A stretch of DNA of 40,971 nucleotides from Kiritimatiellia bacterium (GTDB lineage Bacteria > Verrucomicrobiota > Kiritimatiellia > RZYC01), in NCBI GenBank assembly GCA_028708815.1, contig JAQVYB010000014.1:1-40971 (forward strand), read 5' to 3'. The translations under genes and the position numbers were made by a program. Below, one piece after another: positions 2,862-32,294 of this stretch. Within the stretch, counting starts at the first letter, position 1. Each line of letters starts with the position of its first letter. Under the pieces are notes generated by a model. It did not search any database and was not told where the DNA came from. It saw only the letters and a program-made list of their open reading frames with translations.

Positions 2862-3752
2862 ATGGGATTGCAGAGTATGACCGGATACGGGCGTGGCGCC
2901 GTAAAGACACAGGCTTGCAGCGTGACCGTTGAGTTGGCCTCCGTCAACCGCAAGCAGCTTGATGTGCATTTGAAGATGGATCGTGAGCTTCAAATGCTGG
3001 AGCCGCAGATGGTTTCGGAAATCGGCCGGCGCATTGTGCGCGGACGGGTCAACGCGGAGATTCGGATGGAGTATCATGCGGGGGGCACGGGGTCGTCCAT
3101 CGAAATAGATCGTGAGCTCGCCTCGGATTACATTGCTAATCTCCGCAAGGTGGCGGGGGCCCTGCATTTGGCGGATGATCTGGGAAGCAGCGTACTGCTC
3201 TCGCTGCCGAACGTGGTCAGGTTTTCGAAGTCGGCGCCGGATGCCGAAGCGCTTCTTCCGGTGGTGCTGAAGGCGTTGAACAAGGCGCTGAACAGTTTGA
3301 TTGCCATGCGCAGGCGGGAGGGGCGCGCGTTGTGCAAGGACTTGTCGGGGCGACTGCAAACAATGGAACGCCAGGTGGGTGGGGTCGAAGAAAAGGCTCC
3401 GCTGGTGGCGGACAAATACAGAAGCGATCTGCTTCGGCGCATACGCGAAGCAGGAGTGACGACGGAGGATCAGGAAGAGCGTCTCCTGCGCGAGGTGGCT
3501 TTCTTCGCCGATCGCTCGGATATTTCCGAGGAAATTACACGGCTGAGGAGTCACATCAAACAGATGAAGCAACTCCTGCGCTCTTCCTCCACCGAGGCCA
3601 GTGGACGGGCGATGGATTTCATCGCGCAGGAAATGTTTCGGGAGATCAACACGATCGGTTCCAAGGCGAACGATGCGGGGATCATCCGGGAGGTATTGGA
3701 GTTCAAAACAGAGTTGGAACGGTTTAGGGAACAGGTGCAGAACATCGAATGA
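2862..3752 (+). CDS. yicC: YicC family endoribonuclease-like protein
   Basis: This 296-residue protein matches the YicC/YloC family in length and layout. The N-terminus has the hallmark QSMTGYGRG stretch followed by SVTVELASVNRKQLDV. The C-terminal DUF1732-type region contains DRSDISEEITRLRSHIKQM and a long stretch ending ELERFREQVQNIE. E. coli YicC is reported to act as an endoribonuclease and to influence small-RNA turnover; that role is taken from family knowledge. The start at ATG 2862 has a strong AGGAGGGG ribosome site. It overlaps gmk by four bases (ATGA), the usual yicC-gmk pairing, so the two are probably translated together. Confidence 0.9.
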   Translation: MGLQSMTGYGRGAVKTQACSVTVELASVNRKQLDVHLKMDRELQMLEPQMVSEIGRRIVRGRVNAEIRMEYHAGGTGSSIEIDRELASDYIANLRKVAGALHLADDLGSSVLLSLPNVVRFSKSAPDAEALLPVVLKALNKALNSLIAMRRREGRALCKDLSGRLQTMERQVGGVEEKAPLVADKYRSDLLRRIREAGVTTEDQEERLLREVAFFADRSDISEEITRLRSHIKQMKQLLRSSSTEASGRAMDFIAQEMFREINTIGSKANDAGIIREVLEFKTELERFREQVQNIE

Positions 3753-4615: not shown

Positions 4616-4927
4616 ATGGCCGTTAAAAAGAAAGCAGCAGCGAAGAAGCCCGTGAAAAAAGCAGCAGCGAAGAAGCCCGTGAAAAAAGCGGTAGCTAAGA
4701 AACCTGCGGCGAAGAAAGCGGCGGTGAAGAAACCTGCGGCGAAAAAGGCAGCGGCGAAGAAACCTGCGGTGAAAAAAGCGGCGGTGAAAAAACCTGCGGC
4801 GAAAAAAGCGGCGGTGAAAAAACCTGTGGCCAAAAAGGCCGCGGCGAAGAAACCTGCTGTGAAAAAGGCCGTCGCCAAGAAGCCAGCGGCGAAGAAGGCT
4901 GTCAAGAAGGTCGCTAAGAAGAAATAA
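4616..4927 (+). CDS. Histone-H1-like lysine/alanine-rich DNA-binding protein
   Basis: The 103 residues consist only of Lys, Ala, Pro and Val after the initiator Met. They form tandem pentad-type repeats such as AAKKP and AVKKP. This is the composition of bacterial H1-like proteins (Hc1/HctB, AlgP-type tails), which bind DNA electrostatically and help compact the nucleoid; RNA or ribosome binding is also possible. There is no folded domain. The start at ATG 4616 has a strong GGAGG (4603-4607). The gene has its own long leader and a strong terminator, so it may be a separate, highly expressed transcript. The internal DNA repeats make the copy number prone to slippage. The minus-strand Phe/Ala-rich frame over it is only its shadow. 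Confidence 0.85.
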   Translation: MAVKKKAAAKKPVKKAAAKKPVKKAVAKKPAAKKAAVKKPAAKKAAAKKPAVKKAAVKKPAAKKAAVKKPVAKKAAAKKPAVKKAVAKKPAAKKAVKKVAKKK

Positions 4928-17126: not shown

Positions 17127-17250
17127 TTTTTCCAATCATTGGAACTTTTTGAGGTGATTTTTCCAATCGTTGGAACTTTTTCAGGCGATTTTTCCAATCG
17201 TTGGAACTTTTGGAGACCGTTTTTCCAATCATTGGAAACTTTTTGATCAT
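17127..17250. repeat. Four tandem copies of a 31-bp palindromic repeat
   Basis: Copies begin at 17127, 17158, 17189 and 17220, a strict 31-base period. Each starts TTTTTCCAAT and holds the palindromic core TTCCAATCATTGGAA (copies 1 and 4) or TTCCAATCGTTGGAA (copies 2 and 3). The core is followed by CTTTT or ACTTTTT and a variable stretch of about seven bases. The array fills most of the gap between the lipoprotein gene and hisC. The same core and period recur at 31298-31343 inside the adenylate cyclase gene. Because 31 is about three helical turns, the cores face the same side of DNA, which would suit cooperative protein binding. A mobile mini-repeat is the other main reading. Confidence 0.95.
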
Positions 17251-29309: not shown

Positions 29310-31436
29310 ATGATGAAGGCGGAGACCAAAAAGAAGTGGCTGTACGGGGTACTCTGCGGAAGCGGGGCGGCGCTGATCAGTCTGTCGCTCTGGTTTTTCG
29401 GGGCGTTGGATGCGGTTGAGAATGTGACCTGGGCATGGCGTGTGCGTATGTTCGGGCGCAACTCGGAGTCGGCGGCGAAAATCAAGCTGGTGTTGTTGGA
29501 TCAGCCGTCGCTGGATTGGGCGGCAAACACGTTGAGCGTGTCGTGGCCCTGGCCGCGTGAAATGTATGTTCCGCTGCTTCAGTTTATGCAGCGTGCGGGC
29601 GCGGCGAGCGTGTCGTTTGACGTGCTCTATACCGAGCCTTCGGCCTATTCCGTGAGCGACGACGAAGCGCTTGGAGAGGCGATGCGCAATACGACCAATC
29701 TGGTGGCGGCGGTGTTTCTCGGTGATCGTTCGGGCGGGAGCGAGACTTGGCCGCCGGACATTTTGCAACGCGCCTGGAAGGTGCAGGTGTCGGATCTTAC
29801 GCCCAGACGCGTGCGGCGCTTGAACAAGAGTCATGCCACGTTTCCGATTTCCGAAGTGGCCACCAACGCCGCCTTGTTGGGCAATGTACGCGATATGCCT
29901 GATTCCGACGGGGTGTTCCGTCGCGCCTCGCCGCTGAATCGGTTCGATGGGCGCTATGTGCCTTCGCTCGGTTTGGCGGCATATCTGCTCACGCATCCGG
30001 ATGCCTGGGAAACCAGCCTGGATGCCCGCCGTCTGAAACTCGGGCAGGTGAACATTCCGCTGGATTCCAAGGGGGACGTACTCCTGCATTATCGGGGGGT
30101 ACGGGATCCCTATGAGCGGATACGGGCTGCGGCGGTGATTCAGTCGGAAATGAATTTGCAGGCGGGTATGGAGGCTGAACTGGACCCGAAGGTATTCAAG
30201 GATTGTCACGTCCTGTTTGGATTCAGCGCGCCGGGCTTGATGGATCAGCGGGCCACGCCGGTTTCGCGCGTTTCTCCGGGCGTGTTCATTCACGCCACAC
30301 TGCTGGATAACCTGCTCGATGCGGATGCGCTGCGGGATGTGCCGCGCCATGCGGTGGTGCTCGTGGTGCTGCTGCTTTCCCTGCTGGCGGCGTTGGCGGG
30401 GTTGTTCAGTCGGTCGGCGTGGCGCAGTGCGCTTTTTTACGTGTTGTTTCTGCTTCCCGGGGTGGGGGTTGCGCTGTTGTTTTATCCGCTGGGTTACTGG
30501 TATCCACTGGTGGTGCAGGTGCTGTCGCTGCTGCTGGCGCTGACCGTGGCGGTGCTGGTGAATTATGCCACGGAGGGGCGGCAGAAACAGTTTATCAAGC
30601 GTGCCTTTCAGCACTATTTGAGTCGCGATGTGATTGAAAATATTCTCAACGATCCGGGGCGCTTGAAGCTTGGTGGCGAACGCAAGGTGCTCACGATTTT
30701 CTTTTCCGACATCCAGGGATTTTCCACCATTTCCGAGCGGATGAATCCGCAGGAACTGACCGCCTTTCTCAATGAGTACCTGTCGGAAATGACCGATATT
30801 ATTTTTCAGGAGGGCGGCACGCTCGATAAATACGAGGGTGATGCCATTATCGCTTTTTGGAATGCGCCGATGGATCAGCATGATCACGCCCTGCGCGGAT
30901 GCCGTGCGGCGTTGCGTTGTGCCAACCGCCTCGAAGAGCTGCGTGCGGATTTCGCAAAGCGGTACGGCTCGCCACTCTATGCGCGTATCGGCATGCACAC
31001 GGGCGAGGTGGTGGTGGGGAATATGGGGTCGAAAGAGCGTTTCGATTATACGGTGCTGGGCGATGCGGCCAATCTGGCCTCTCGTCTTGAGGGTGCGAAC
31101 AAAGCCTTCGGAACGTATATCATGGTTTCCGGCGAAACCTGGTCGGCAGTGGAGGGGCAACTGAGTGCGCGGCAAATCGGAAGAATACGGGTGGTCGGGC
31201 GCAAAACGCCGGTAAATGTGTATGAACTGCTGACGTTGAATCCGAACGAACGGCCGGACTGGGTTCGGACCTTCGAAGAAGGGCTCGTATGCGTTTTTTC
31301 CAATGATTGGAAAAATGCGATGGAAAAGTTCCAATCATTGGAAAAAGATCCGCCGGCCGCGAAGTATCTGGCACGCTGCCGTGAGGCGTTGAAGGGTAGT
31401 GATTGGGACGGCGTTTGGAATCTGACGGAGAAATAA
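29310..31436 (+). CDS. CHASE2-domain adenylate/guanylate cyclase
   Basis: This 708-residue membrane cyclase makes a cyclic nucleotide, probably cAMP. An N-terminal helix precedes a periplasmic CHASE2 sensor (about residues 35-330). Three membrane helices (about 345-420) and a class III cyclase domain (about 458-640) follow. Metal-binding Asp467 lies in FFSDIQGFS and Asp511 in KYEGDAII. Lys in LDKYEGD and Asp in YTVLGDAANLASR fit adenine recognition, and the Asn-Arg pair for transition-state binding is present, so the domain looks active. The C-terminal tail (about 650-708, ending WDGVWNLTEK) contains two in-frame copies of the 31-bp palindromic repeat, encoding FSNDWK and FQSLEK. The next two genes could degrade and sense its product. 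Confidence 0.93.
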   Translation: MMKAETKKKWLYGVLCGSGAALISLSLWFFGALDAVENVTWAWRVRMFGRNSESAAKIKLVLLDQPSLDWAANTLSVSWPWPREMYVPLLQFMQRAGAASVSFDVLYTEPSAYSVSDDEALGEAMRNTTNLVAAVFLGDRSGGSETWPPDILQRAWKVQVSDLTPRRVRRLNKSHATFPISEVATNAALLGNVRDMPDSDGVFRRASPLNRFDGRYVPSLGLAAYLLTHPDAWETSLDARRLKLGQVNIPLDSKGDVLLHYRGVRDPYERIRAAAVIQSEMNLQAGMEAELDPKVFKDCHVLFGFSAPGLMDQRATPVSRVSPGVFIHATLLDNLLDADALRDVPRHAVVLVVLLLSLLAALAGLFSRSAWRSALFYVLFLLPGVGVALLFYPLGYWYPLVVQVLSLLLALTVAVLVNYATEGRQKQFIKRAFQHYLSRDVIENILNDPGRLKLGGERKVLTIFFSDIQGFSTISERMNPQELTAFLNEYLSEMTDIIFQEGGTLDKYEGDAIIAFWNAPMDQHDHALRGCRAALRCANRLEELRADFAKRYGSPLYARIGMHTGEVVVGNMGSKERFDYTVLGDAANLASRLEGANKAFGTYIMVSGETWSAVEGQLSARQIGRIRVVGRKTPVNVYELLTLNPNERPDWVRTFEEGLVCVFSNDWKNAMEKFQSLEKDPPAAKYLARCREALKGSDWDGVWNLTEK
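31294..31347 (+). repeat. Two copies of the 31-bp palindromic repeat inside the cyclase gene
   Basis: TTCCAATGATTGGAA (31298-31312) and TTCCAATCATTGGAA (31329-31343) start exactly 31 bases apart, the same core and period as the array at 17127-17250. The flanks (AAAAG before, AAAAA after) match the array read on its minus strand. Here both copies are translated: the first gives F-S-N-D-W-K and the second, one frame on, F-Q-S-L-E-K. The cyclase frame is not broken. Confidence 0.95.
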
Positions 31437-32294
31437 ATGCAAATCACATTGGGCGGTGTGCGTGGTACGGCGGTGGTGACGAATCCGGCCTTTCGCGAGT
31501 TCGGAGGTGATACCACCTGTTTCTACATTGTGGGGCGTGACGGGGAAGAAATACTGATCGATTTCGGATCGGGCCTCAACGGCATGCGCGACCGATTGAG
31601 CCAATCCGATAGGCCGATGCTGGCGTTGATGACGCATTATCATCTTGATCATCTGGCGGAATTTCCGGTGTTTCCTAGGATATACCGTCCCGGCGCCCCG
31701 TTGCACATTGTCGGTCCGTCGTTGAACGGCAAGGAGGTGAAGGATGTTTTCGCGCAAATCATGGCGGCCCCGTTCTGGCCTCAGCAAATTGAGATGCTGC
31801 GTGGGGAACTGACGTTCGAGGCGCTGGGGACGTATCATCGCGAGGCCGTGATGACGTATGGCGGATTAGAGGTGCGTTGGTGTCCGGTGCATCATCCGGG
31901 TGGTTGCGTGGCGTACCGCGTGGATGAGCCGGCGACCGGGCATAGCCTGCTTGTTGCGACAGATATTGAGTGGCCGCTTTCCACAAAGGAGGAGCGCGAT
32001 ATCTTTTTGCATTTGTGTCGCACGCCGAATCCCGTAAATTGGATGGCCTTTGACGGGCATTGTACACCGGAGAATTATCCGGCGCATGTGAACTGGGGAC
32101 ACAGTACCTGGCAGGATGGGGTGGCGATTGCGAGAGAGACCGGCATTCAACAGCTCGTGATTATTCATCACGCGCCGGAATTGGATGATGCCGCGCTGCG
32201 CGAATTGGAACGTAAGATGCGGGAGGAATGCCCGGGGGCGGTGTTGGGACGGCAGGGTGAGCGGTATGAAGGAGCGGAGAAGGTGAATCCATGA
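31437..32294 (+). CDS. Metallo-beta-lactamase-fold hydrolase, possible cyclic nucleotide phosphodiesterase
   Basis: This 285-residue, probably cytoplasmic, protein has an intact dinuclear metal motif. THYHLDH gives His67, His69, Asp71 and His72. A later His in VHHPGGC, Asp in VATDIEW and the terminal VIIHHAP segment complete the set. The fold is used by many hydrolases, including some cyclic nucleotide phosphodiesterases. Its place directly after the cyclase (start immediately after the stop) and before a cNMP-binding channel makes cAMP hydrolysis an attractive, unproven role. It overlaps the channel gene by ATGA. Confidence 0.82.
   Translation: MQITLGGVRGTAVVTNPAFREFGGDTTCFYIVGRDGEEILIDFGSGLNGMRDRLSQSDRPMLALMTHYHLDHLAEFPVFPRIYRPGAPLHIVGPSLNGKEVKDVFAQIMAAPFWPQQIEMLRGELTFEALGTYHREAVMTYGGLEVRWCPVHHPGGCVAYRVDEPATGHSLLVATDIEWPLSTKEERDIFLHLCRTPNPVNWMAFDGHCTPENYPAHVNWGHSTWQDGVAIARETGIQQLVIIHHAPELDDAALRELERKMREECPGAVLGRQGERYEGAEKVNP

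Follow-up and report, generated by a model that had tools for sequence, protein, structure and literature searches.

A phased palindromic array in Kiritimatiellia, built into cyclase code without a change of length and probably bound by a DNA-wrapping protein

The window analysed here, a stretch of 40,971 nucleotides from a Kiritimatiellia bacterium (assembly GCA_028708815.1, contig JAQVYB010000014.1, positions 1 to 40,971), carries a CHASE2-domain adenylate/guanylate cyclase gene whose frame of 708 amino acids has orthologues in 40 of 57 relatives. Two copies of a 15-bp palindromic core lie within this gene and four more in an intergenic array, as follows.

17127 to 17250, + strand: intergenic array, four cores at 31-bp intervals, flanked by genes for a glycoside-hydrolase-2-like protein and a class I/II aminotransferase
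29310 to 31436, + strand: CHASE2-domain adenylate/guanylate cyclase gene holding two cores (Pfam CHASE2 E=1.4e-47, Guanylate_cyc E=1.2e-21)
31298 to 31312, + strand: core 1, TTCCAATGATTGGAA, exact match, read (F)SNDWK, centre G
31313 to 31328, - strand: spacer of 16 bp, CTTTTCCATCGCATTT on the minus strand, matching the genome-wide consensus ACTTTTTnnnCnnTTT
31329 to 31343, + strand: core 2, TTCCAATCATTGGAA, exact match, read FQSLE, centre C
31437 to 32294, + strand: metallo-beta-lactamase-fold (MBL-fold) gene directly 3' of the cyclase, its neighbour across most of the class

An earlier note, made from the letters alone, had described two 15-base cores 31 bases apart in the 3' end of the cyclase gene and further copies, with sequence and phase in agreement, at 17127-17250. 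Both descriptions hold: the cyclase cores together read as FSNDWKNAMEKFQSLEK, and the four cores of the intergenic array read SNDWKNGLQKFQRLEK on the minus strand. Core 2 has the centre C (TCA) because the TGA normally seen in arrays of this direction would terminate the cyclase frame. The cyclase cores lie 93 bp ahead of the MBL-fold gene start. Elsewhere in the window, at 4616-4927 (+), ~30-bp tandem repeats (repeat 4654-4896) would encode lysine/alanine-rich KKAAAKKPAA units, which resemble histone-H1-type chromatin proteins.

The TTCCAATSATTGGAA cores are a real family and not a product of chance. The 4.0-Mb source genome (G000) contains 190 exact matches to the core, as against none for the reversed control, and the window alone holds 14 matches with three or fewer mismatches, a number never equalled by shuffles (mean 1.4, maximum 5). 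Two other members of the source genome's family carry 226 and 274 exact cores, and a genome-wide pattern search found exact single cores in 20 of 57 relatives. Paired cores, searched as a two-core pattern, turned up in 70 of the 288 genomes from the class; the reversed control was 0 in each, and the highest count (1216 matches) came from G088; outside the class but in the same phylum, one of 131 sampled genomes had them. All array genomes share TTCCAANSNTTGGAA and ~15-bp palindromic sites of the form TTCCAA-NSN-TTGGAA, in which the centre varies by lineage (TSA in the source genome's family, GSC in family f7, others elsewhere). The cores are conserved and flanked by A/T tracts, and the middle of the spacer (genome-wide consensus ACTTTTTnnnCnnTTT) is free to vary. 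A GTAG or CGTC tag is absent at the palindrome foot, the consensus TTTTTCCAATSATTGGAA(A)CTTTTT having neither. The earlier note knew of no described family with the repeat sequence, and our reading of the open-access literature likewise found none with TTCCAATSATTGGAA. Presence differs within genera: arrays occur in G034 and are absent or nearly absent in G006 and G023 (genus g7), and the same is true of G036 and G056 vs. G025 (genus g25) and of G049 vs. G014 (genus g15). Such patchiness inside one genus suggests that the array system was gained or lost recently.

The spacing of the cores is quantised. Pooled over the genomes read, core-to-core distances fall at 22 bp (20 times), 30-33 bp (342 times) and 41-43 bp (25 times), with rarer classes at 52, 62-63, 73, 106 and 116 bp, and only 3 of 399 lie off the helical-turn classes, that is, the multiples of ~10.5 bp. 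Rayleigh R at 10.5 bp was 0.93, with p ~1e-13 using only spacings >33 bp. In some genomes 31 and 32 bp alternate, which averages to three exact turns. The source genome yielded 77 arrays in 777 kb fetched around copies, four cores being the commonest number; its array counts cover 0.78 Mb around known copies, and those of G002, from its sister genus, cover 1.2 Mb. Some arrays have a tandem-duplicated look (e.g. L048, with three identical spacers), but tandem duplication by itself should yield a single unit length, which makes helical-turn phasing the simplest reading of the spacing classes. By analogy with known systems, the cores have the layout of operator arrays for an oligomeric protein: a protein that binds cooperatively as dimers would require sites on one helix face at quantised spacing, near-perfect dyads and spacers free to vary.

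The same arrangement can be considered at the level of RNA, where hairpins might act as terminators, stability elements or RNase sites. Adjacent cores can pair, and the two in the cyclase are exact reverse complements (-24.7 kcal/mol, z -6.0). However, the centre base is the same in 248 of 306 adjacent exact cores and so places a mismatch in the hairpin; arrays also sit between divergent genes, a setting without transcript ends; and helical spacing is meaningless for RNA. Further, terminator and promoter scans of the arrays found nothing, leaving no terminator-like site, and an Rfam scan of the arrays returned 0 matches. Keeping these observations in mind, we regard an RNA element as very improbable.

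As to genomic placement, the 1.2 Mb read from G002, mostly not chosen by copy, holds 120 cores; 86 of them are noncoding, in DNA of which 11% is noncoding (p 2e-54), and the other 34 are coding, as judged by gene calls from a simple codon model written for the analysis. Arrays are found between tandem, convergent and divergent gene pairs, and no consistent relation of array direction to flanking gene direction was found. A dependence of array direction on the replication strand was weak and of opposite sign in G000 and G002, the G002 spacer being itself symmetric, and the idea was dropped. Because array positions are mostly unshared between the two genomes, gene-by-gene regulation at most sites looks unlikely. 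Conserved neighbours were rejected as evidence of a regulon, their overlap between G000 and G002 being approximately that of chance, the cyclase itself excepted.

Two origins had been proposed for the cyclase copy in the earlier note, namely that the repeat invaded the gene as an in-frame insertion or that it arose from the cyclase coding segment and then spread, and the comparison with relatives supports neither. Approximately 30 cyclase orthologues align ungapped through the core segment, without extra residues, and most of them keep W or an aromatic residue, A and F at the same positions. The W-x6-F frame was already there, in agreement with the note's description of the tail as an otherwise normal C-terminus, and the orthologues share the native W-x-x-A-x-x-x-F. 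Spread from the cyclase is contradicted by arrays in G017 and G051, which have no detectable cyclase orthologue, and by array-bearing genomes whose orthologue lacks cores at the site. Judged by these alignments, the cyclase array is overlaid on native coding sequence, not inserted.

At this site of the cyclase, cores are common only to the source genome and G002. A cyclase tree built without the tail recovers these two as sisters (97/81) with core-free G001 outside, and the simplest history is therefore one gain before the two diverged. Separately, the cyclase of L035 (JANYIU010000194.1, labelled Holophagaceae) nests inside family f7 of the Kiritimatiellia class, probably reflecting a binning error or a wrongly labelled record. 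The source and G002 cyclases are ~50% identical as proteins, and in the array they use the same codon at 13 of 14 identical residues, compared with ~45% elsewhere (Fisher p 3e-4), in a test which, like the one for aspartase below, is small, with 13-14 codons each. The G002 cyclase has a third core, four turns (43 bp) upstream, which lies in another frame and reads VPMIGT. On this comparison the array appears to be kept by selection as a DNA word. Core-free cyclase orthologues differ from the double core by 14-23 mismatches, and hence stepwise capture in the cyclase would need many changes.

A similar case is presented by the lyase/aspartase-like gene L052 (Pfam Lyase_1), which carries two cores at amino acids 172-187. 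The G001 aspartase has cores at the same two positions, one exact and one with a single mismatch, and its codons are identical to those of the source at 12 of 13 sites in the array vs. 120 of 271 elsewhere (p 6e-4). Core-free aspartase orthologues encode FQTLEK...LGKTEL, i.e. similar residues through other codons, and f17 aspartase sequences are only a few mismatches from the cores; taken together, the sequences support capture of native coding sequence. The aspartase gene tree is unresolved and compatible with either shared descent or parallel capture.

These data also bear on coding convergence, according to which a common helix motif, N/G-D-W-x-x-A-x-x-x-F, is spelled like the repeat by chance. 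The amino-acid frame is indeed native, and the core-free aspartases, by reaching FQTLEK...LGKTEL through other codons, show the pattern that the earlier note would have taken as a sign of convergence; the codon identity among core-bearing species, however, indicates that the DNA word itself was kept, and the note's test thus turns out in favour of convergence in one respect and against it in the other. Two perfect 15-mers exactly 31 bp apart, 13 of 14 codons shared with the sister genus at ~50% protein identity, the extra core in a different frame and the distance of 14-23 mismatches to core-free orthologues all speak against chance, and we find convergence scarcely credible.

In other genes the arrays do add residues. 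The G008 cyclase carries four units, read in three frames, in the CHASE2 loop, with ~16 extra residues, and the G035 cyclase has two units in the same loop; at locus L027 the array adds residues relative to repeat-free orthologues. The resemblance to in-frame inserted palindromes that had been suggested for the cyclase thus fails there, where no residues are gained, and holds at other loci such as L027. In G002 an array forms the end of a chemoreceptor-like protein, others lie within a DUF2298 membrane protein and further genes, and several genes end FQ* with the TGA stop supplied by the core. The ...FQ* ends at L117:3277, L167:8788, L173:15915 and L039:5383 take their TGA from the array's first core. 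To judge from such frames, arrays can reset gene ends.

Extra residues or C-terminal extensions in some genes, hundreds of dispersed copies, patchiness even within a genus, turnover of array positions between genera and the tandem-duplicated look of arrays such as L048 are all features expected of a mobile or selfish palindromic repeat, REP-like or inserted in frame as in Rickettsia, that invades genes and is tolerated. Such a repeat is difficult to reconcile with the unchanged length of the cyclase, with spacing by helical turns and not by one unit length, and with unconserved spacer middles. Moreover, no mobile carrier was found among plasmids (0 matches) or viral contigs (1 in 2.9 million), and Y1_Tnp counts do not follow the arrays, the domain being absent in array-bearing G017, G030, G034 and G045 and abundant in array-free G019 and G046. 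We consider a selfish origin unlikely. Viral contig L251 (IMGVR_UViG_3300035698_006241), the sole one to match the two-core pattern (at 3460-3505), is possibly host DNA or a provirus end. The whole genome of G002 gave 63 weak matches to the Y1 transposase domain, far above most relatives.

The interpretation that we favour, and hold to be likely, is that the 54-bp cyclase segment is a two-site member of class-wide phased DNA-binding arrays of Lrp-like design, overlaid on coding sequence. Each 15-bp palindrome would most likely be bound by a protein dimer. With sites whole helical turns apart, mostly three (~31.5 bp) but also two, four, five and six, neighbouring dimers would be presented on one DNA face, so that an oligomer may bind them together and wrap or bend ~60-130 bp; an effect of the array on the downstream gene is conceivable. 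The cyclase array lies over the codons of the native W-x-x-A-x-x-x-F helix; it most likely arose via base substitution or same-length patch replacement where coding and binding requirements coincided, and appears to be maintained by selection on the DNA word. Cumulatively, the TTCCAATSATTGGAA array is probably gripped by a DNA-wrapping protein and built into cyclase code without a change of length.

By analogy, an Lrp/AsnC-type octamer would be the best-matching known design for the binder, and the one Lrp/AsnC protein with an HTH in the source genome (L214) is a candidate. PF01037 is present in all 57 genomes with at least two core pairs and in 183 of 231 others of the class. The Lrp recognition helix was rejected as the cause of array presence, since it does not visibly separate genomes with arrays from those without. 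Within the ~3 kb fetched around lrp in G000 and 29 relatives there were no arrays, only two isolated imperfect matches; self-regulation of Lrp/AsnC proteins through such sites is common but not universal. Since PF01037 is common in array-free genomes and the recognition helices are alike, we speak of an Lrp-like design, with membership of Lrp itself as a candidate only.

It is possible, and we offer this tentatively, that the arrays belong to a dedicated DNA-wrapping system of the class, a chromatin-like nucleoid protein with tens to hundreds of phased addresses per genome, in which the phasing code would be strong enough to constrain enzyme codons across genus-level divergence and the palindrome centre would shift by lineage as binder and sites co-evolve. 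Phased sites across the genomes of a little-cultured class point to a global DNA-binding protein and provide an exact bait sequence for it. In-gene arrays are natural experiments in which a single DNA stretch holds both a protein code and a binding code, and patchiness within genera makes the gain and loss of the array system traceable.

REP/BIME elements are dispersed short palindromes, mostly intergenic and clustered, that occasionally occur in genes (PMC3733652). The Kiritimatiellia arrays resemble them in all these respects but, unlike REP/BIME elements with their RAYT transposases, are A+T-rich, lack the GTAG/CGTC tag, are spaced by helical turns and show no Y1 transposase link. Rickettsia palindromic elements form a family of palindromes that occur within proteins in several reading frames, each as one long inserted element. 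Compared by description, the arrays are likewise read in several frames within proteins, whereas the cyclase replacement involves no length change and the site units are ~31 bp. Lrp/AsnC-type arrays consist of 4-5 semipalindromes of 15 bp with 15-17-bp spacers and an alternative 27-29-bp spacing (PMC10201364); Ss-LrpB recognizes the 15-bp palindrome TTGCAAAATTTGCAA, built as 6+3+6, with DNA wrapping (PMC4046817); sites can be aligned on the same face at two or three turns (PMC2995911); and binding can also be intragenic (PMC10201364, PMC4046817, PMC2995911). Unlike these systems, the class has tens to hundreds of arrays per genome with near-perfect sites, placed mostly between genes without promoter preference and in some cases within coding sequence, and its Lrp neither tracks array presence nor has an array at its own gene. 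Like the operator arrays of BarR and Ss-LrpB, the Kiritimatiellia arrays combine 6+3+6 palindromes of 15 bp with 15-17-bp spacers and an alternative one turn longer, and, as in Lrp/AsnC arrays of 3-5 sites set two or three turns apart, the sites keep to one helix face, here in classes of 22, 31-32, 42 and 52 bp.
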